11,302 bases of DNA, from the NCBI GenBank assembly GCA_947175305.1, contig CAMWMO010000006.1:1-11302 (forward strand), given 5' to 3'. How positions within the stretch are numbered: position 1 is the first letter of the stretch; every line of letters starts with the position of its first letter. The DNA comes from an uncultured Lachnospiraceae bacterium (GTDB taxonomy: Bacteria > Bacillota > Clostridia > Lachnospirales > Lachnospiraceae). The notes under the pieces were generated by a model. The model was not told the DNA's origin and did no database searches. It saw only the letters and a program-made list of their open reading frames with translations. Both the position numbers and the translations under genes were made by a program. Below are positions 956 through 11,302 of this stretch, piece after piece.

Positions 956-984
956 TTGACACAAATTTGCAGGCTTGATAGAAT
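956..984 (+). promoter_or_regulatory. Sigma-A promoter of the hybrid kinase gene
   Basis: The -35 box TTGACA (956-961) is perfect and the -10 box TAGAAT (979-984) differs at one base, with a 17-nt spacer. The predicted start near 991 leaves a leader of about 37 nt before the ATG at 1028. The promoter begins 22 bp after the yerC stop, so the kinase can be expressed independently of yerC. Confidence 0.8.
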
Positions 985-1027
985 AAAAAACAACAAACAT
1001 TATTATCATGGGCAGAGGGAATCCGAT

Positions 1028-4000
1028 ATGTATACTTGTCGTCTTCATATATATTTTGCAGGGCATCCCAGTCACGCTTTGGACGTGATAAAAAGGATGC
1101 CCGCTCTTGAAAATTTTACCCATATTTTTTCCGAAAGTGACGAGGCAGAAGCATCCTTGTCCCAAAAAGCGGACGTGATCATTGCCGATCTGTCCAATAC
1201 GGATATGCAGCCAGCACTGCAGACCTTTGTGCAAAACTGCAGCGCTGGGACGCGGATTATTTTGCTTGCAAGCAGGGAGCAGATGCGGCATCTTTGCTCG
1301 GATCCGGCATTAAAGGATATCACGGACATCTGGATAATGCCTATGTCCGACGAGGAGCTTCGCTTCCGTTTCCTGAGATGGCAGCAAACCTTTAAGATGA
1401 ACAAGGATTTCTGGGAAACCTCTCACTTCCTTGAGGCTACGATCAACAACGTTCCCAATCTGATCTGGTATAAAGATAAAGACGGCGTCCATGAAAAAGT
1501 AAACAACAGCTTCTGCCAGGCCGTCAACAAGACCAAACAGCAGGTTGAAGGGCGCAGACACGCCTATATCTGGGACGTTGAGGAAGATGACCCTTCCTGC
1601 ATCGAGTCTGAACATCAGGTTATGAGCAAAGAGCAGACTCTTGTTTCCGAGGAGACCATTAAGGCCGGGGAGGAGACAAGGACCCTAATGTGTTACAAGT
1701 CTCCCCTCTATAACTGTGACGGCACCGTCATGGGAACCGTCGGCGTGGGTGTCGATGTGACGCAGGAACGCGCCTATGAGCAGCAGATCATCAATAAAAA
1801 CCGGACTCTGGAGACGATCCTTGCCACCATTGACTGCGGCTTAATGAATCACCGTCTGAATGATTCGCATATTCTGAACATAAACAGGGCGGCGCTCAAG
1901 CTTCTGGGATATGAGACGCTGGAGGAATTGACGGCGGACGGCTTTGACCTCATTGCCGCCTCCGTAGTGGATGAGGACAGGGAGCTTTTGCGAAACAGCA
2001 TCCGTACCCTGAAAAAAGCCGGGGATACCGTCAATGTGGCGTACCGCGTACAGCATAAAAACGGGGAAATTCTCCACATCATGGGAAATATCAAGCTCTA
2101 TGAGGAGAACGGAGAGCTGTTATGCCAGCGTTTTCTTGTGGACGTTACGGAACAGAAACTTCAGGAGCGGAAAGACAAAAAACGGCAGATGGAACTGCTT
2201 CAGGCATTGAGCCTGGATTTTACGCAGGTCTGTTTTCTGGAACCCGACACCGGTATGCTCGTTCCGGTTCGTACCGACAAGGGCAAACTGGATAATATAT
2301 TTGAAAATAAAATTTCTCTGGAAAAAAGCATGGAGCACTACATCGAGGAGTGGGTATATGAAGAAGACCGTGAAATGCTGCGGCATGCCACTTCTCTCGA
2401 TACCATCCAGAGTGAACTGCGCAACAGACAGATATACTCCGTCAATTACCGCAAGCGGCAGGATGGGGAGCTTATCTATTTCCAGATAAAGGCCGTGAGC
2501 GTCGGAACGGAAGATGGCGGTCTGGGCATCGTACTCGGCTTTCGCAGCGTGGATGCGGACATCCGTAAGGAGATGGAGCAGAACACACTGCTTGAGGCCG
2601 CGCTCGCTCAGGCCAACCGGGCAAGCAAGGCAAAGAGCGTATTTTTGTCAAATATGTCCCATGATATCCGCACCCCGATGAATGCCATTGTGGGATTTAC
2701 GAATCTGGCCATTACCCATATCGACCGGAAGGAACAGGTTGTGGAATACCTGAAAAAGATCCAGACCTCCGGCAACCATCTGCTGAGTCTCATCAACGAT
2801 ATACTGGATATGAGCCACATCGAAAGCGGGAAGCTCCAGCTGGATGAAAAGCTCTGCAGCCTTCCCGAAATTTTACATGGCTTGCGCAATATTCTGCAGG
2901 CGGATATCCACGCCAAACAGCTTGATCTGCAGATCGATACGGTGGATGTTGTGGACGAAGCCATTTACTGTGACAAGCTTAGACTGAATCAAGTTCTTTT
3001 GAATCTGCTCAGCAACGCCGTAAAATATACGGGAGCCGGCGGCCACGTCAGTATGCGGATCACAGAAAAACCGGGCGCTCCCGCCGGCTATGCCAACTAT
3101 GAATTTTCTATCAAGGACAGCGGCATCGGCATGAGCCAGGAGTTCGTGGAGCATATTTTCGAGCCCTTTGAGCGGGAACGCAACAGCACCATCAGCAAGA
3201 TTCAGGGAACCGGCCTTGGCATGGCCATCACAAAAAATATCGTGGATATGATGAACGGTTCCATTTCCGTAACGAGTGAGCAGGGCGTGGGAAGCGAATT
3301 TAAGGTCTCCTTCACCTTCCGTCTGCACGCCGAGAGAAAAGAGGATCTTATCCTGCCGGAGTTGAAAGGCTGCAAGGCTCTGGTGGTGGACGACGATTTC
3401 AATACCTGCGACAGCGTTTCCTATATGCTGGGACAGCTTGGTATGCATGCCGAATGGACGCTGTCCGGTAAGGAAGCGGTCCTGCGCAGCCATCAGGCGC
3501 TCACGCGGGACGCAGGCTATTCCGTATATATTGTGGACTGGCTGCTGCCTGACATGAACGGCATCGAGGTAACCCGGAGGATCCGGAAGGAAATCGGCGA
3601 AAGCGTGCCCATCATCGTTCTGACCGCCTACGACTGGTCGGATATCGAGGAGGAGGCACAGGAAGCCGGAGTCACGGCATTCTGCAATAAGCCTTTGTTT
3701 TTATCGGAATTACGCTCCTGCCTCCATTCCGTGCTGCAGCCCAAACCGCAAGAGGACGAAGCCGCTGAAAAAGAAATCCCGCCCCGTCATACCGGTCGGA
3801 TTCTGTTGGCGGAGGATGTGGAGATGAATCAGGAGCTCGCTGTCGTGCTTCTGGAAAATGCAGGCTTCAGCGTAGATGTCGCGGACAATGGCCAGATCGC
3901 CTTCGAAATGGTGGCAAAATCGGATCCCGGCTACTATCAGGCGGTGCTGATGGATGTGCAGATGCCTGTGATGGACGGTTATGAGGCAACAAAGCATATC

Positions 4001-4165
4001 AGAAAACTGGAAAACCATGAGCTGGCTTCCATTCCGATCATCGCGATGACCGCCAACGCTTTTACAGAAGACCGAGAGGAAGCTCTCAAAAGCGGCATGA
4101 ACGCTCATATCGCCAAGCCCATCGACGTAGAGGTATTGTTTGAAACGCTTAATAAAGTACTCTAG
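1028..4165 (+). CDS. Soluble PAS-domain hybrid sensor histidine kinase with two receiver domains
   Basis: This 1045-residue protein has no membrane segment, so it should sense a cytoplasmic signal. In order: a degenerate receiver-like domain (about 3-115), three PAS-like domains (about 132-246, 258-374 and 385-512), a HisKA dimerisation helix pair with the H-box SHDIRTPMN and phospho-acceptor His545, and a HATPase domain with N-box Asn663, G1 box DSGIGM from Asp697, F-box FEPFER and G2 box GTGLGM from Gly727. Two intact receivers follow: 783-900 with acidic DDD at 788-790 and acceptor Asp837, and 924-1045 with ED at 929-930 and acceptor Asp976. Both keep the conserved KP lysine. No Hpt domain or DNA-binding output is present, so its partner must be encoded elsewhere. 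The start at 1028 is set by an AGAGGG site; the open frame reaching back to 956 begins inside the promoter. The signal is not predictable from sequence. Confidence 0.93.
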   Translation: MYTCRLHIYFAGHPSHALDVIKRMPALENFTHIFSESDEAEASLSQKADVIIADLSNTDMQPALQTFVQNCSAGTRIILLASREQMRHLCSDPALKDITDIWIMPMSDEELRFRFLRWQQTFKMNKDFWETSHFLEATINNVPNLIWYKDKDGVHEKVNNSFCQAVNKTKQQVEGRRHAYIWDVEEDDPSCIESEHQVMSKEQTLVSEETIKAGEETRTLMCYKSPLYNCDGTVMGTVGVGVDVTQERAYEQQIINKNRTLETILATIDCGLMNHRLNDSHILNINRAALKLLGYETLEELTADGFDLIAASVVDEDRELLRNSIRTLKKAGDTVNVAYRVQHKNGEILHIMGNIKLYEENGELLCQRFLVDVTEQKLQERKDKKRQMELLQALSLDFTQVCFLEPDTGMLVPVRTDKGKLDNIFENKISLEKSMEHYIEEWVYEEDREMLRHATSLDTIQSELRNRQIYSVNYRKRQDGELIYFQIKAVSVGTEDGGLGIVLGFRSVDADIRKEMEQNTLLEAALAQANRASKAKSVFLSNMSHDIRTPMNAIVGFTNLAITHIDRKEQVVEYLKKIQTSGNHLLSLINDILDMSHIESGKLQLDEKLCSLPEILHGLRNILQADIHAKQLDLQIDTVDVVDEAIYCDKLRLNQVLLNLLSNAVKYTGAGGHVSMRITEKPGAPAGYANYEFSIKDSGIGMSQEFVEHIFEPFERERNSTISKIQGTGLGMAITKNIVDMMNGSISVTSEQGVGSEFKVSFTFRLHAERKEDLILPELKGCKALVVDDDFNTCDSVSYMLGQLGMHAEWTLSGKEAVLRSHQALTRDAGYSVYIVDWLLPDMNGIEVTRRIRKEIGESVPIIVLTAYDWSDIEEEAQEAGVTAFCNKPLFLSELRSCLHSVLQPKPQEDEAAEKEIPPRHTGRILLAEDVEMNQELAVVLLENAGFSVDVADNGQIAFEMVAKSDPGYYQAVLMDVQMPVMDGYEATKHIRKLENHELASIPIIAMTANAFTEDREEALKSGMNAHIAKPIDVEVLFETLNKVL

Positions 4166-5609: not shown

Positions 5610-6068
5610 ATGAAAAGAATAAAAGCATTACTTTTTGTCTCTCTCTTGGTAGTGAGCATGACCGCTCTGACCGCCTGCGGCAACAGAGCTGCCACTAACA
5701 ACGGCAATAACGGCACAGGAAATGCCACCACCGGCACAGGCACTACCGATTCCGGTGTCACTGGCACTGACAATGGCGTCACAGGCACTGACAACGGCAT
5801 CACAGGTACTGACAACACAGACATGAACGGTGCGGATACTGACAATACCGGTATGACAAACGGAAACGATACGCTCAACGATGCCACTGCCGGCACAAAC
5901 GGCACGAACAACAACGGTTCCATCGCTGACGATGCGGGCGACGCCATCGGCGATGCCGTAGGCGATGCAGGCAACGCTGCCTCCGATATCATAGACGATG
6001 CCGCGACAGGCGTGGAAAACATGGTGGACGATGTAACAGACGCGGGCACATCCAACAAGGCGCGATAG
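5610..6068 (+). CDS. Small Thr/Gly/Asn/Asp-rich lipoprotein of unknown function
   Basis: This 152-residue protein begins MKRIKALLFVSLLVVSMTAL and continues with the lipobox LTAC-G. It should be cleaved before Cys23 and lipid-anchored on the outer face of the membrane. Residues 25-110 are low complexity, rich in Thr, Gly, Asn and Asp, and include three tandem 7-residue units of the form G(V/I)TGTDN (49-69). The C-terminal part (about 103-147) is Asp/Ala-rich with a helical, roughly heptad look (DDAGDAIGDAVGDAGNAASD). I recognise no catalytic motif. An AAAGGAG site precedes the ATG. The mature protein should be strongly acidic, so a cell-wall spacer or cation-binding role is possible, but this is inference. 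Its reverse strand carries long open frames, which are compositional shadows. Confidence 0.85.
   Translation: MKRIKALLFVSLLVVSMTALTACGNRAATNNGNNGTGNATTGTGTTDSGVTGTDNGVTGTDNGITGTDNTDMNGADTDNTGMTNGNDTLNDATAGTNGTNNNGSIADDAGDAIGDAVGDAGNAASDIIDDAATGVENMVDDVTDAGTSNKAR
5754..5816 (+). repeat. 21-bp tandem repeat, three copies, in the lipoprotein gene
   Basis: Three consecutive 21-bp units encode GVTGTDN, GVTGTDN and GITGTDN. The copies differ mainly at third positions, for example GGTGTCACTGG, GGCGTCACAGG and GGCATCACAGG at the unit starts. This pattern fits an older duplication kept under protein-level constraint. The unit is in frame, so copy-number change would alter the length of the extended region without breaking the gene. 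Confidence 0.85.
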
Positions 6069-6076
6069 CAAATCGA

Positions 6077-6090
6077 GCGCCGCAAGGCGC
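6077..6090 (+). other. GNRA-loop hairpin after the lipoprotein stop codon
   Basis: GCGCC (6077-6081) and GGCGC (6086-6090) form a 5-bp GC stem closed by the stable tetraloop GCAA. It lies 8 nt after the stop codon and 4 nt before the terminator stem, so it may stabilise the mRNA 3' end or aid termination. Confidence 0.5.
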
Positions 6091-6094
6091 ACTG

Positions 6095-6135
6095 AAAAAA
6101 GAGTTCCCGAGGCGTATCCCCGAGAACTCTTTTTT
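6095..6135. terminator. Bidirectional terminator between the lipoprotein gene and fbp
   Basis: AAAAAAGAGTTC (6095-6106) and GAACTCTTTTTT (6124-6135) are perfect 12-nt arms around a 17-nt loop. The A-run and T-run on the two sides allow termination of both the plus-strand lipoprotein transcript and the minus-strand fbp operon. The 3' arm overlaps the fbp stop codon by 2 nt. Confidence 0.85.
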
Positions 6136-8089
6136 ATTTTTCTATTAATATACCGTCTCTGTAGGCCTGCAGTAATTCCTCCAGCTGGTGAATGCTCTCC
6201 CGCAGCTCCGTACCGATCTCTGTGTCCGCGATCTTCTGTCGTCTGGCAGTAGTTTCCAGAATAAAGGAATCTGAAAAAATATCCGATTCATGAAGGATCG
6301 CCGCCTCCGTGGACTCGAAGGGCTCATGCGCCACCAGACGCATCCCGTAGGAATTGACCACCAGGGTATAACCGGCGATTCCCGTCTTGTCCTGATATGC
6401 TTTGGAAAAGCCTCCGTCGATGACAAGCAGCTTGCCGCCGCATTTCACAGGCGTCTCTCCCTTCTTCCGCTCCACCGGCACATGTCCGTTCACGATGTGG
6501 GAATGAGCCTCGTCCAGCCCGAACTCCTGCAGAATACGATTGACTACCATCTCACTGTCGAGATGTCTGTAGTAGGCATTCTTCGTCTCCTTGTGCAGTT
6601 CCTTATCTTCCAGCAGATACCGCTCAAAGGTAGCCATCTTATCCTTGCCGAATACGGGGGAATTAGGGCCCGCCCAGATATACCAGATGATATCCTGTCC
6701 TTTCAGCTTATCCTGCAGATTATGGGAATAGTAACCCTTTCTCGCATAGTGCTCCAGGACATCATAAAGCGCCTTGCCGCTGTATTCCTCTCCATAGACA
6801 TTCACCTTGTTAAAATTCCCCTCTTCGTCCATAGGCACACAGCCGTGGTAGAGCAGATTGGAATTATAGACTTTATAAAGCCCGCCCTTGGAGAAAAGAA
6901 AGCGCACATGCTTCTGCAGCTTCTCACATTTGACAAAAGCCTGCCGCAGACGCTCCATCACCTGCTCCTCCTCCTGGGTCAGCTCATAAGGCCTGTTTCT
7001 GTTTATGGTAGGGAAGTCCACATCCTTCATAGGATAGGATATGCCGTCCAGCACGAGAACCTTATTTTCATAGTCAATATGCTCTAAAAGCAGCCTGTCC
7101 TGCATGGCAAATTCGGGCCGCCGCATGATCAGCTGTCCCTCCAGCTTGAACTGTAAAATGGAGATAGCCTTGTGCATCTTCATATCCAGGCTCAGATCCT
7201 TCGTGTCGTAGTCCGTATTATATTTGATGGCGAATGCTTCGCAGTCCGTGTCCTTATAGGCATCCAGGGCAAAAGTCGCAAGGGGAATCAGGTTAATGCC
7301 ATAGCCCTCCTCCAGCGTATCCAGATTGCCATAGCGAGCCGCCATGCGGATCACATTCGCGATACAGGCCAGATGCCCGCTGGCCGCTCCCATCCACACG
7401 ATATCATGGTTGCCCCACTGCACGTCCACGGAATGATAATCGCAGAGGGTATCCAGAATGATATGGGGACCGGGTCCTCTGTCATAAATATCACCCACGA
7501 TATGAAGATGGTCGATGACCAGCCGCTGAATCAGATTGCTCAGCGCCACGATGAACTCCGGCGCCCTGCCGATCCTAATGATGGTGTGGATGATCTCGTT
7601 ATAATAGGCTTCCTTGTCCTGAATTTCCGCCTTCTCCGTGATCAGCTCCTCAATGATATAGGAAAAATCCTTCGGCAGCGCTTTCCTCACCTTAGAGCGG
7701 GTGTACTTGGAAGAGACCCGCTTCGTGATCTGCACCAGCCTGTGCAACGTGATCTTATACCAGTCCTCGATGGAATTTTCATCCTCCTCGCGCATGACGA
7801 TATCCAGTTTCTCATTGGGATAGTAGATCAGCGTCGCCAGGCTCTTTTTATCCTTGATACTCAAAGTATTGCCGAACTCCTCATCGATCTTGCGCCGCAC
7901 GGAACCGGAACCGTTTTTCAGAATATGATTAAACTGCTCATACTCCCCATGGATGTCCGTCATAAAATGTTCTGTACCCTTGGGCAGATTCAAAATCGCC
8001 TGGAGATTTATGATCTCCGTGGATGCCGCCGCAATGGTGGGATACTGTTTCGATAAACTTTTAAGGTACTTTAATTCTAATTCGTCCAT
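6134..8089 (-). CDS. fbp: Fructose-1,6-bisphosphatase, class III
   Basis: The 651-residue enzyme hydrolyses fructose 1,6-bisphosphate to fructose 6-phosphate in gluconeogenesis. It belongs to the Firmicutes class III family of metallophosphatases, about 640-670 residues long and unrelated to FBPase I. Metal-binding and catalytic motifs are visible in order: MTDIHGEY (Asp45, His47), VGDIYDRG (Asp200, Asp203) and WGNHD (Asn227, His228), with later His residues in IVNGHVPV and VAHEPFES. The start at 8089 has an AGGAG site a few nt upstream. The gene lies 24 nt downstream of dapB with no visible promoter or terminator between them, so it is probably the last gene of the dapA-dapB-fbp operon. It ends at a terminator shared with the converging lipoprotein gene. 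Confidence 0.96.
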   Translation of the reverse strand: MDELELKYLKSLSKQYPTIAAASTEIINLQAILNLPKGTEHFMTDIHGEYEQFNHILKNGSGSVRRKIDEEFGNTLSIKDKKSLATLIYYPNEKLDIVMREEDENSIEDWYKITLHRLVQITKRVSSKYTRSKVRKALPKDFSYIIEELITEKAEIQDKEAYYNEIIHTIIRIGRAPEFIVALSNLIQRLVIDHLHIVGDIYDRGPGPHIILDTLCDYHSVDVQWGNHDIVWMGAASGHLACIANVIRMAARYGNLDTLEEGYGINLIPLATFALDAYKDTDCEAFAIKYNTDYDTKDLSLDMKMHKAISILQFKLEGQLIMRRPEFAMQDRLLLEHIDYENKVLVLDGISYPMKDVDFPTINRNRPYELTQEEEQVMERLRQAFVKCEKLQKHVRFLFSKGGLYKVYNSNLLYHGCVPMDEEGNFNKVNVYGEEYSGKALYDVLEHYARKGYYSHNLQDKLKGQDIIWYIWAGPNSPVFGKDKMATFERYLLEDKELHKETKNAYYRHLDSEMVVNRILQEFGLDEAHSHIVNGHVPVERKKGETPVKCGGKLLVIDGGFSKAYQDKTGIAGYTLVVNSYGMRLVAHEPFESTEAAILHESDIFSDSFILETTARRQKIADTEIGTELRESIHQLEELLQAYRDGILIEK

Positions 8090-8113: not shown

Positions 8114-8869
8114 TTATCCTATCACATCCGCCATATCATACATACCTGCCGTCTTGCCCTTCAGATACTTGGCCGCCTGAATGGCTCCCTTGCCAAACAC
8201 CGCCTTGGAATAAGCTCTGTGCGAGAAGGTGACCACCTCATCCGCTCCCGCAAAAATCACATCGTGCTCTCCCACGATGGTGCCGCCTCTGACGGCGCTG
8301 ATCCCCAGTTCCTTCTTACCTCTCTTCTGTCTGACCTGGCTTCTGTCATAGACATAAGTGTAAGTGTTGTCCATCTGCTCATTAATAGAATCCGCCAGAG
8401 CAAGCGCCGTGCCGCTGGGTGCATCCAGCTTCTGGTTGTGATGCTTCTCTATAATCTCAATATCAAAGCCCGCAGTCGCCAGAGTCTGCGCCGCTTCCTT
8501 CAACAGCTTTAACAGCAGGTTGATACCGAGAGACATATTGGCGGATTTTAAAACCGCGATCTGCTTTGACGCCTCCTGCACCTTCGCAAGTTGCGCCTCC
8601 GACAATCCCGTGGTACACAAAACACAGGGCAGCTTCTTTTCCACACAATAATCCAACAGGGCGTCCACCGCCGCCGCCACGGAAAAATCAATGAGGGCAT
8701 CCGCCTCCACTGTACATGCCTTGATATCCGTAAAGACAGGATACGTATTTCTGCCATCGTCTACGGCATCGATTCCCGCTACGATCTCAATCTCTTCATC
8801 CGCCGCGATCAGGGAGGTTATGGTCTGTCCCATCTTCCCGTTGCAGCCGTGCATGATCACTCTTACCAT
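8114..8869 (-). CDS. dapB: 4-hydroxy-tetrahydrodipicolinate reductase (DapB)
   Basis: This 251-residue enzyme uses NAD(P)H to reduce hydroxytetrahydrodipicolinate to tetrahydrodipicolinate on the diaminopimelate/lysine route. The N-terminal Rossmann motif is GCNGKMG (8-14). The catalytic segment EKHHNQKLDAPSGTA contains His143, His144 and Lys147, with substrate-binding Ser-Gly-Thr at 152-154, and the C-terminal RGGTIVGEHDV signature is present. The frame extends upstream to 8953 and contains an earlier ATG, but the ATG at 8869 follows a GAAGGAG site and begins the homology. The gene lies 102 nt after dapA, separated by a large palindrome, and 24 nt before fbp. Confidence 0.97.
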   Translation of the reverse strand: MVRVIMHGCNGKMGQTITSLIAADEEIEIVAGIDAVDDGRNTYPVFTDIKACTVEADALIDFSVAAAVDALLDYCVEKKLPCVLCTTGLSEAQLAKVQEASKQIAVLKSANMSLGINLLLKLLKEAAQTLATAGFDIEIIEKHHNQKLDAPSGTALALADSINEQMDNTYTYVYDRSQVRQKRGKKELGISAVRGGTIVGEHDVIFAGADEVVTFSHRAYSKAVFGKGAIQAAKYLKGKTAGMYDMADVIG

Positions 8870-8904
8870 ACTATGATCTCCTTCTCTCTTATTCATCAAA
8901 ATAA

Positions 8905-8958
8905 ACAGATTGACATTTCTGCGAGCGAAAGCGTGCCCGCGATAGAATGTCAATCTGT
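8905..8958. repeat. 54-nt palindrome between dapA and dapB
   Basis: Perfect 13-bp arms, ACAGATTGACATT (8905-8917) and AATGTCAATCTGT (8946-8958), enclose a core. On the transcribed minus strand the core can fold further as GCGGGC paired with GCTCGC (one G-U pair) after a small internal loop. On the transcript it is followed by TTTATTTTG, an interrupted U-run, and then by the dapB ribosome binding site about 34 nt after the stem. It may be a leaky intercistronic terminator or attenuator, an mRNA processing or stabilising site, or a copy of a dispersed palindromic element. Sequence alone does not decide. Confidence 0.7.
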
Positions 8959-8971
8959 ATTATATTGCATA

Positions 8972-9856
8972 TTACAGAATTCCGTAATCCGTCATTGCCT
9001 TTTTCAGCCGCTCCACGTTCTGCGGTTCCATCTCCGACAAGGGCATATGTAAGCCGCCCACCGCTTTTCCCATCAGGTTCAGGCCAGCCTTCACCGGAAT
9101 CGGGTTCACCTCGCAGAAAAGAGCGTCGCACAAATCGATCGCACGAAGCTGTTCCTTCGCGCTGCCCGCCACATCTCCGTCAAAGAATTTCTGGCATATC
9201 TCATGGGTCTGTCTCGGCGCCACATTGGACAGGACAGAGATCACACCCTTGCCGCCGAGAGACAGGATCGGCACGATCTGGTCGTCATTTCCGGAGTACA
9301 GATCCACTTTGTCTCCTGCAAGAGCCATCAGCTTCGCAATCTGTGAGATATTACCGCTGGCCTCCTTGATGCCCACGATATTCTCCACCTCCGTACAGAG
9401 TCTCGCCGCCGTCTGGGGCTGGATATTGCACCCCGTGCGGCTGGGCACATTGTAGAGGATGATAGGCAGCTTGACAGAGTCCGCCACCTTTTTAAAATGG
9501 GCATAGAGCCCGTTCTGCGTTGCTTTGTTATAGTAAGGCGTCACCAGCAGCAAGCCGTCCACGCCGTACTTTTCCGCCTCTGTGGAGAGATATACCGCCG
9601 TATCGGTGCAGTTCGATCCAGTCCCCGCCACCACAGGCACCCTGCCCTTCACGGTCTCTGCGCAGAAACGAATCAGATCCAGATGCTCCTCATGGGTCAA
9701 TGTGGAAGATTCTCCTGTAGTGCCACAGACAATGATCGCATCTGTGCCGCCCGCAATCTGGAATTCCACCAACTCCGCAAATTTTTCGTAATTGATACTG
9801 CCGTCCTCATGAAATGGGGTGACGATCGCAACACCCGCTCCTGTAAAAATCGCCAT
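8972..9856 (-). CDS. dapA: 4-hydroxy-tetrahydrodipicolinate synthase (DapA)
   Basis: This 294-residue TIM-barrel enzyme condenses pyruvate with aspartate semialdehyde, the first committed step to diaminopimelate and lysine. Lys164 in GIKEASG is the Schiff-base residue, Tyr135 in YNVPSRTG and Thr47 in GTTGESSTL are the expected catalytic partners, and Arg140 the substrate carboxylate binder. The length is typical for the family. An in-frame extension runs to 9910, but the ATG at 9856 has an AAGGAGG site 5 nt away and starts the homology (MAIFTGAGVAIVTPF). It is the first gene after the lysine riboswitch, which fits end-product control of the pathway. Confidence 0.97.
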   Translation of the reverse strand: MAIFTGAGVAIVTPFHEDGSINYEKFAELVEFQIAGGTDAIIVCGTTGESSTLTHEEHLDLIRFCAETVKGRVPVVAGTGSNCTDTAVYLSTEAEKYGVDGLLLVTPYYNKATQNGLYAHFKKVADSVKLPIILYNVPSRTGCNIQPQTAARLCTEVENIVGIKEASGNISQIAKLMALAGDKVDLYSGNDDQIVPILSLGGKGVISVLSNVAPRQTHEICQKFFDGDVAGSAKEQLRAIDLCDALFCEVNPIPVKAGLNLMGKAVGGLHMPLSEMEPQNVERLKKAMTDYGIL

Positions 9857-9861
9857 AAAAT

Positions 9862-9932
9862 CCTCCTTTTCCAACATGATAAAGAGCCGACCACACAGGG
9901 TCAGCTCCATAATTCTGCTGTTTCCGGTGTGG
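9862..9932 (-). promoter_or_regulatory. Probable expression platform of the lysine riboswitch
   Basis: Just after the aptamer, CCACAC (9932-9927) can pair with GTGTGG (9896-9891); the first base of this stem is also the last base of aptamer helix P1. Only a short, interrupted U-stretch follows (CTCTTTATC), so a strong intrinsic terminator is not evident. Alternatively CUCUUU (9886-9881) can pair with AAGGAG (9868-9863) of the dapA ribosome binding site, leaving a 12-nt loop, which would allow translational control. The mechanism is inferred. Confidence 0.4.
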
Positions 9933-10092
9933 ATAGCGCCCCATCGATTCGATGACAGTCATACAGTTCTTAACTGTATGCCCAAGAAAAAACGTACAGA
10001 CCGTCTCCTCTTTCGGCGTCTTCTCCTTTCCGGACACTTCTTCTGTGCCTGCCACATCCATGTCCCTACTGATAGAAAACGCAACCTCTATC
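9932..10092 (-). promoter_or_regulatory. Lysine riboswitch (L-box) upstream of dapA
   Basis: The leader carries L-box consensus blocks in the right order on the minus strand. These are GATAGAGGTTGC (P1 5' strand, 10092-10081), CAGTAGG in the P2 region, GGAAAGGAG, and GACGCCGAAAGAGG (10020-10007). Next come the hairpin CATACAGTT-AAG-AACTGTATG (9980-9960), GACTGTCA, the small hairpin CATCG-ATT-CGATG on the plus strand (9942-9954), and GGGGCGCTATC, which closes P1. GATAG pairs with CTATC. In the known family, lysine binding shuts off downstream lysine genes; here these are dapA, dapB and probably fbp. The position, between a consensus promoter and dapA, supports the call. Confidence 0.92.
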
Positions 10093-10117
10093 AACTCCAT
10101 TATTACTTATTAAATTT

Positions 10118-10172: not shown

Positions 10173-11302
10173 TTATTGCAAGAGCTGCAACACGGTCTGA
10201 TTTGCCATATTTGCCTGAGACATAACAGAAAAATTTACCTGCTCAAGAATTCGATAGCACGAAAAATCCACCATCTCATCTGCTATGTCGGCATCGGCAA
10301 GCCTGCTTTCAGATGCCGATACGTTCTCACCTGTATTGGCATTGGCATTATACAGATGCTCAAGCGCATTTTGATAGCTGCCGTAGCGGTTTCTTTGCAT
10401 AGAAACATATTCAATCGCCTGTTTACACAATGAGATTGCCTTTTCCGCGGTGTCCTGACTCATCACATTCAAAGTCGTTCCTTTGCCAAAGAGTGCGGAA
10501 GTGCGCATATCGGCATAGTCGATTTGGAAGCGGTTCCCGCAGAATGGACCCACCCGCAGATAGATAGAGGTTTCGTTGACTGATGATAGTCCGCCTGCAC
10601 CGCCTCCCGAAGAATTTACGTTTTCGCCTGTCTGCCCATCCAGCTTGAGAAACCAAGCATCCGTTCCTCCTTTGTTTTTGTCTACGAGATCCTCATCGTT
10701 GGAGCTGCTGTTGCCGCCGAGCAGGATATCGCCGTCTTCGCATTCAAACATGAAGTTAAAAGAATCGCTCCCGGTTCCGCCATGCACTTCCTCCCAAATA
10801 ATATCACCGGAGTCCTTGTCAACCATAAATACCCATGCGCTGCTCCCGGAATACCCAGGCTTCGCGGTTACATCTCCGTCAATTGTGCCCACTCTTCCGG
10901 CAATGACAAAGCCGTTTTCTGTTTCAACAACACAACTGCCGCTATCGTCTGCACTGCTTCCATATGATCTGCTCCAAATGGGGGTCAGGTTTTTATCCAG
11001 CTTCATGACCCAGACATTCTTACCGCGGCTCTCATCTTTGGAAGGCGAGGCTGAACCCACAGTATCCGTAATCGCGGCTGATCCGACTACAATATACTCT
11101 CCGGCAGAGGTTTCTATAATTTGAGAGATGTTTTCTCCGTCGTCGCCTACGCCATTATCCCCAAACAGCAATACCCTTTCAGCATCCCCGTTCTTATCAA
11201 ACTTTACAATATAGGCATGGTGATGACCGGTTCCGATGGTTTGTGTCGGCAGATTGGTGACGCTGCCATCGTTGTTGCTCTGCTTGATATTCGACGCTAT
11301 CA
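10173..11302 (-). CDS. Flagellin with beta-propeller-type repeat insert, 5' end outside window
   Basis: About 376 C-terminal codons are visible and the frame stays open to the window edge; the internal TTG at 11171 is not a start. The last 137 residues are a flagellin C-terminal region: LRVGPFCGNRFQIDYADM resembles the D1 entry, YVSMQRNRYGSYQNALEHL the long D1 helix, and SESRLADADIADEM with QANMANQTVLQLLQ the D0 end needed for filament packing. Before this, a Gly-rich linker (about 10591-10608) joins about 60-residue repeats of the form AW-(hydrophobic)-K-LD-x-x-G...GG-x-x-D...ETxxGxxIxxG, typical of bacterial beta-propellers. The repeats should replace the surface-exposed D2/D3 region. Five cysteines are present, unusual for flagellin. 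The N-terminal D0/D1 is expected upstream but not seen. No terminator is evident before the dapA promoter. Confidence 0.88.
   Translation of the reverse strand, partial: IASNIKQSNNDGSVTNLPTQTIGTGHHHAYIVKFDKNGDAERVLLFGDNGVGDDGENISQIIETSAGEYIVVGSAAITDTVGSASPSKDESRGKNVWVMKLDKNLTPIWSRSYGSSADDSGSCVVETENGFVIAGRVGTIDGDVTAKPGYSGSSAWVFMVDKDSGDIIWEEVHGGTGSDSFNFMFECEDGDILLGGNSSSNDEDLVDKNKGGTDAWFLKLDGQTGENVNSSGGGAGGLSSVNETSIYLRVGPFCGNRFQIDYADMRTSALFGKGTTLNVMSQDTAEKAISLCKQAIEYVSMQRNRYGSYQNALEHLYNANANTGENVSASESRLADADIADEMVDFSCYRILEQVNFSVMSQANMANQTVLQLLQ
10600..11216 (-). repeat. Protein-level beta-propeller repeats in the flagellin centre
   Basis: Repeat units start at AYIVKFDKNG (11216), VWVMKLDKNL (11015), AWVFMVDKDS (10838) and AWFLKLDGQT (10658). 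The full units are 67, 59 and 60 residues long. Each combines an aromatic-hydrophobic-KLD strand, a G/S-rich turn with Asp (FGDNGVGDD, YGSSADDS, HGGTGSDS) and an I-ETxxGxxI-x-G strand pair. The fourth unit is cut short and runs into the Gly-rich linker. More units may lie upstream of the window. DNA identity between units looks low, so they are not recent duplications. Confidence 0.75.

Follow-up and report, generated by a model that had tools for sequence, protein, structure and literature searches.

The outer domains of flagellins are usually seen as variable antigens, and the propeller fold class, to which the six-bladed sialidases belong, widely serves ligand binding and catalysis. That flagellin variable regions accept inserts, as the preliminary description of this locus pointed out with the metallopeptidase of flagellinolysin as its example, agrees with the survey of Eckhard et al. 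(2017; PMC5595980), which in the sections cited here counts 61 domain types inside flagellins, including gluzincin metallopeptidase (86), vWFA (21), Peptidase_M26 (17) and Sialidase (10). According to the same sections, flagellinolysin resembles the protein described below in that a foreign domain occupies the outer flagellin region while D0/D1 is kept, and in its patchy spread. It differs in the insert itself, a gluzincin metallopeptidase, as Pfam finds no peptidase domain in the window protein or the three relatives scanned; the flagellinolysin model NF033876 scores 24–42 bits here, as opposed to its cut-off of 205, with the best stretch over the C-terminal part. The "Sialidase" flagellins (10 sequences, Table 1 of Eckhard et al., 2017) likewise pair a flagellin with a domain of propeller fold. 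Compared by description, they differ from the present family, which has seven repeats, no Pfam sialidase match and no Asp-box in any of 59 rows.

Three further groups of proteins invite comparison. The propeller of CylK (PDB 7ron, 7fh6) is, in the portion of its structural description cited here (PMC8916777), seven-bladed with calcium at every blade junction, and it shares with our protein the number of repeats or blades and an acid in the blade-junction motif. Unlike CylK, the propeller flagellin lacks the calcium-binding N-terminal domain and the catalytic tyrosine, and its repeats 3–5 are longer. Secreted repeat propellers of Bacteroidota, often with a T9SS sorting domain (PF18962), share their repeat motifs with the propeller flagellin (GGS-x-x-D, DGGY and W-x-x-K-x-D) and give E-values down to 5.5e-55 among the matches listed, values that repeat composition inflates. 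On the other hand, among those same matches they have no flagellin ends and only 24–35% identity, and in the ones examined the repeats are spaced mostly 58–65 aa apart, as opposed to 46–79 aa in the propeller flagellin. Finally, other species of the genus have giant flagellin-type frames of 1006–1881 aa (L055–L064), which similarly place flagellin ends around a large centre; in the nine of these ten that were scanned, however, that centre has no Pfam match above cut-off, and only the ends pass. The arrangement at our locus had been put forward as a candidate for something undescribed, and this stands for the propeller flagellin itself, as no protein of this type was found in the open-licence literature, judged by titles and abstract openings. 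It does not stand for inserted domains in general, given the 61 types, "Sialidase" included, in the cited sections of PMC5595980. Domain-inserted flagellins are known, and the seven-repeat propeller insert is what appears to be new.

The window, by which we mean the whole stretch of DNA analysed, is an entire contig (C6 of genome G000; 11,302 bases) of a draft genome with 467 contigs and 66% completeness. A minus-strand frame of 375 aa without internal stops runs to the contig end, where its 5' end is open. Flagellin_C (PF00700) matches residues 291–374 of its translation (E 4.4e-16, Pfam) and the flagellin 9hpz_A matches residues 240–375 (E 6.4e-24), while no Pfam propeller family is found in the window protein at E ≤ 1. 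Over all its 375 residues the window protein shows 92% identity to P0050 (749 aa), the closest of its full-length relatives. A flagellin C-terminal D1/D0 module joined by a Gly-rich linker to at least three full repeats of about 60 residues had been read from the letters of this frame, and that layout is borne out (see the table below); the observation is confirmed as real.

Table. Features of the propeller-flagellin gene in the window, and positions of the shared leader in related loci
Feature	Position	Strand	Basis
Propeller-flagellin gene, 3' part, 375 codons + stop; 5' part past contig end	10173..11300	-	ORF; 92% identity to P0050
Propeller repeat 4, second half, 43 aa	11172..11300	-	Alignment to L030 repeat 4
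Propeller repeat 5, 66 aa	10974..11171	-	Sub-range translation, repeat HMM work on relatives
Propeller repeat 6, 60 aa	10794..10973	-	Sub-range translation, repeat HMM work on relatives
Propeller repeat 7, 58 aa	10620..10793	-	Sub-range translation, repeat HMM work on relatives
Gly-rich linker, 18 aa	10566..10619	-	Mean identity in family 0.45
Flagellin C-terminal D1/D0, 130 aa	10176..10565	-	Pfam PF00700; 9hpz_A
Leader AAAGGTWYRCCTRTRRCRAA	L028 4808; L030 4820; L031 4820; L032 4823; L067 (G000:C123)

The missing 5' part can be judged from relatives. Sixteen loci were obtained when 84,980 species genomes were scanned, and five of these (L027, L028, L030, L031 and L032) hold unbroken frames of 761–778 codons from stop to stop; L030 belongs to the isolate Petralouisia muris NM01_1-7b, and L029 is truncated by its contig end. 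Full-length relatives are proteins of about 750–770 aa in which flagellin D0/D1 flanks a run of seven repeats on either side, and in L027, L030 and L032 Pfam scores Flagellin_N (PF00669) at 117.8–137.5 bits and Flagellin_C at 56.8–65.9 bits. A stand-alone gene comprising flagellin arms and a propeller is, to our minds, practically certain. Six of the loci L035–L042 are flagellins without a propeller and two are repeat proteins without flagellin ends; one of the latter, a 2568-aa frame from an uncultured Clostridium (L042, 1255–8961), has propeller-type repeats of the same kind with no flagellin end seen, and is another Gram-positive user of this repeat type. A protein search, in which the best 8000 candidates were scored and the best 120 of 572 matches listed, speaks for the same architecture. 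Among the matches listed, the first 72 flagellin-type clusters comprise 63 with both flagellin ends, eight that have just the C end and one that has just the N end; beginning with P0073, identity is 24–35% and no flagellin domain is listed. Since identity among these matches falls from 56% to 24–35%, the propeller flagellins form a discrete family.

The start of the window's own gene probably lies elsewhere in the same draft genome. At the extreme end of contig C123, residues 1–37 match the N-terminal half of L027 (73% identity, E 1.7e-10), and the leader sequence AAAGGTWYRCCTRTRRCRAA starts 44 nt before the ATG, the same distance as in L028, L030, L031 and L032. When five genomes were searched with at most one mismatch allowed, the leader pattern had a single occurrence in G000 (on C123), in G384, in G473 (P. 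muris) and in G475; it was not found in G002, a genome of the window's genus apparently with the L027 locus; the reversed pattern, as a control, gave one chance match in the five, in G384. We infer that C123 carries the start of the window's flagellin gene, the contigs C123 and C6 not being physically joined. An upstream flagellin D0/D1, which the preliminary description had proposed to look for, is found in the relatives, with a matching 37-residue start in the window's genome; the contrary signs that it had named, a stop, a frameshift or the N-terminus of a secreted enzyme, were not seen, the relatives' upstream part being flagellin D0/D1. A frameshifted gene or pseudogene is likewise rejected, with no stops in the window frame or the five full-length loci and dN/dS below 1.

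In P. muris numbering, the seven repeats span residues 168–610, with lengths of 60, 46, 75, 74, 70, 60 and 58, and the corresponding alignment columns are likewise filled in other full-length members, which supplies the repeat total that the truncated frame had left to be counted. Recognition of the repeats was tested on relatives and not on the window fragment, which is 68–71% identical to them: single-repeat HMMs built from 48 full-length relatives were each applied to the six remaining repeats in P. muris. Scores reached 27.7 bits, as against 6.6–10.2 bits, depending on the HMM, for the best of 1200 shuffles. Six of the seven HMMs placed at least one other repeat above the shuffle maximum, and five placed at least two. 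In this P. muris test repeat 3 was recognised by none of the HMMs and its own HMM recognised no other repeat, so that it is assigned as a putative repeat by position only. None of the propeller families in Pfam reaches its cut-off in L027, L030 or L032, PQQ_2 coming near in two of the three (24.7 and 27.3 bits vs 27.6). A profile of the propeller together with distant relatives (A3) matches CylK with E 3.1e-47; this value comes from a profile made mostly of distant secreted repeats, and a single-sequence query gives E 0.002 only. Because there are seven repeats, and because the profile matches CylK, which is itself seven-bladed, a closed seven-bladed fold is very probable on sequence grounds. 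The acid of the blade-junction motif is near-invariant in six of the seven repeats (at least 50 of 53 rows), repeat 2 being variable, and may bind calcium. The propeller-like repeat array that had been read into this flagellin is in this way supported both by the seven repeats and by the CylK match, and the flagellin-plus-propeller combination, which was to be sought in protein databases, is the one displayed by the 63 listed clusters with both ends.

Whether such a domain has a function can be judged above all from its conservation. Among the 48 members of full length, pairwise identity averages 0.78 for the N arm, 0.74 for the propeller and 0.68 for the C arm, compared with 0.45 for each linker, both linkers being Gly-rich and variable in length. 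Ten ordinary flagellins of the window's genus, taken as its best C-terminal matches after G000 and G002, with L049 read from an internal Met, show instead 0.81, 0.43 and 0.79 for N arm, centre and C arm. The propeller is under purifying selection, with dN/dS of 0.15–0.41 over 15 pairs. The case for a specific job of the domain is made most strongly by its being conserved near the level of the arms, when the centres of ordinary flagellins stand at 0.43; in conservation the outer domain here comes close to the filament core, unlike the usual picture of a variable antigen. Columns invariant and specific to the family number 17 of 75 in repeat 3 and 1–9 in each other repeat. Two such residues, R327 and H406 (P. 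muris numbering), never vary within the family and are lacking in 33 distant propellers, a comparison made by low-identity alignment with uncertain registers.

The explanation that we favour, at a probability of roughly 0.5, is that these proteins are accessory flagellins whose outer D2/D3 region would be a seven-repeat β-propeller of the secreted type, displaying a conserved ligand-binding site. The protein would pass through the flagellar export gate in unfolded form and co-polymerise, by way of its D0/D1 ends, with the ordinary flagellins of the cell, and the propeller would fold outside and project from the filament. There it might bind a fixed ligand, which could be a glycan or a protein belonging to mucus, food particles, the host or neighbouring cells, most likely through the face on which the extended, family-specific loops of repeats 3–5 lie, with the invariant R327 and H406; many copies per filament would make even a weak site multivalent. 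Display on the filament is argued for by FlhA in the hosts, by their further flagellin-type genes and by the D1 motif [QH]R-x-x-EL, kept in 48 of 48 full-length members, a region that we take to be the one recognised by TLR5 in other flagellins. Ligand binding as the main function of the propeller, which draws on its conservation, its dN/dS and the invariant R327/H406, appears about evenly balanced; against it, repeat 3, a part of the proposed site, is the one that the HMM test did not recognise. These considerations suggest that some flagella of Lachnospiraceae may carry a dedicated binding surface. The P. muris type strain NM01_1-7b (DSM 110156 = JCM 37187, as given in the cited portion of PMC12700296) is in culture, which makes this question directly testable for the flagella of commensals. 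A bolder version, and a doubtful one, holds that the propeller folds only outside the cell at high calcium, a hint taken from the calcium at the blade junctions of CylK, and yields a lectin-like or catalytic flagellum with a conserved binding or active site on the R327/H406 face, and that the gene, which has its own leader and lacks a sigma-28 motif, is switched apart from swimming; if that were true, the flagella would serve these gut commensals as organs for specific attachment or chemistry.

Foremost among the rivals to a binding surface is that the propeller is an enzyme and the filament catalytic, as in flagellinolysin. The nearest solved relative by profile, CylK, is indeed an enzyme (PMC8916777, in the portion cited); CylK-type propellers can bear an active site on their top face, and R327 and H406, in repeats 3 and 4, stand three residues before the c-strand aromatic, as does the catalytic Tyr473 of CylK in a motif-based alignment. 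The specific chemistries fare poorly, however. At the place equivalent to Tyr473 a tyrosine is absent from all seven repeats (0 of 47–59 rows each, motif-placed and not structure-placed), and the calcium-binding N-terminal domain that brings Arg105 in CylK is missing, the N-terminal part here being flagellin; with both lacking, a CylK-type alkylating enzyme is rejected. A sialidase is rejected as well, as two Asp-box patterns match none of the 59 rows. Nor does any curated enzyme family pass its Pfam cut-off in the three relatives. By these sequence comparisons both CylK chemistry and sialidase activity are unlikely, and we regard an enzymatic propeller of any kind as improbable, while still ranking it above a structural domain, and that above a plain antigen.

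A structural role, in which the propeller stiffens, bundles or shields filaments through contacts between subunits and has no outside ligand, is a little less probable again. The conservation and the dN/dS would be expected of such a domain too, and the outer domains of flagellins commonly pack against one another. The Gly-rich, length-variable and poorly conserved linkers (0.45) suggest a loose tether instead, and one flagellin among several need not adjoin its own kind. More improbable is a plain, variable antigen domain of the ordinary type, or an insert that is neutral and has no fixed function: the family is rare and patchy, and degraded pieces occur in two relatives, yet the centre is nearly as conserved as the arms, unlike that of the ordinary flagellins of the genus, and dN/dS is 0.15–0.41. 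An assembly chimera or misread frame, which the fragmented state of the draft and a gene cut by a contig end might invite, has a negligible chance, as the join, flagged beforehand as a possible artefact, is unbroken in five full-length loci of other assemblies, one of them from an isolate, and both flagellin ends are present in 63 protein clusters among the matches listed.

If the accessory-flagellin reading is followed further, one may ask where the propeller came from. In a midpoint-rooted tree covering few genera, the arms of the 48 propeller flagellins group into a single clade, set against 21 other flagellins, with support 100/100; three of 24 ordinary flagellins (L049, L061, L004) were left out of this tree, as the motif used for trimming was not found in them. 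A single clade of arms fits a single insertion, and the propeller would most simply have entered once, in an ancestor. With a propeller-only query, matches were found in two of 77 genomes of the genus, the other 75 giving none, and in two of 397 genomes sampled from the family. When nine loci were compared, no conserved neighbours were shared apart from two exceptions, namely a PriA-like and a Mur-ligase gene, both apparently housekeeping genes, that lie near L028 and also near L033, and a weak match (26%) of the window's kinase to a gene at L031. Because the loci are not syntenic, whole-gene transfer or repeated loss is likely. In L033 (about 6001–6642) and L034 (5995–6327) only pieces of the propeller flagellin are seen, in short frames, and these genes look degraded; together with the lack of conserved neighbours, this argues that the gene is dispensable in places. 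A phage origin was considered and rejected, as none of 50,697 phage records matched. Nine of 72,556 plasmid records match, all at below 60% identity, and none of the eight of these that were listed carries a flagellin annotation.

Host genomes have 3–10 Flagellin_N matches each, hook-associated proteins probably counted in, so that the propeller flagellin is one flagellin-type protein among several. FlhA was found in nine of ten genomes searched, or eight of nine if G384 and G471, apparently one genome, are counted once; it was not found in G472, and G000 has only a 220-codon piece. None of five upstream regions contains a sigma-28 promoter motif. The pair TTGATTTC..TATAAT is present upstream in L028, L030, L031 and L032, and in L043, which is the same gene as L028; it was not found upstream in L027 or L067, and L042 has one unrelated match. 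That the gene has neither a sigma-28 motif nor conserved flagellar neighbours makes tight co-expression with motility genes less likely, and is to that extent evidence against simple co-assembly.

Elsewhere in the window, a hybrid histidine kinase with PAS and receiver domains (956–4165, plus strand) adjoins a Trp-repressor-like gene (524–934). Beyond the flagellin stop lies dapA-dapB (8114–9910, minus strand), and between the two is a lysine riboswitch (Rfam RF00168, 109.1 bits; 9926–10098, minus strand), which places these lysine genes under a control of their own.
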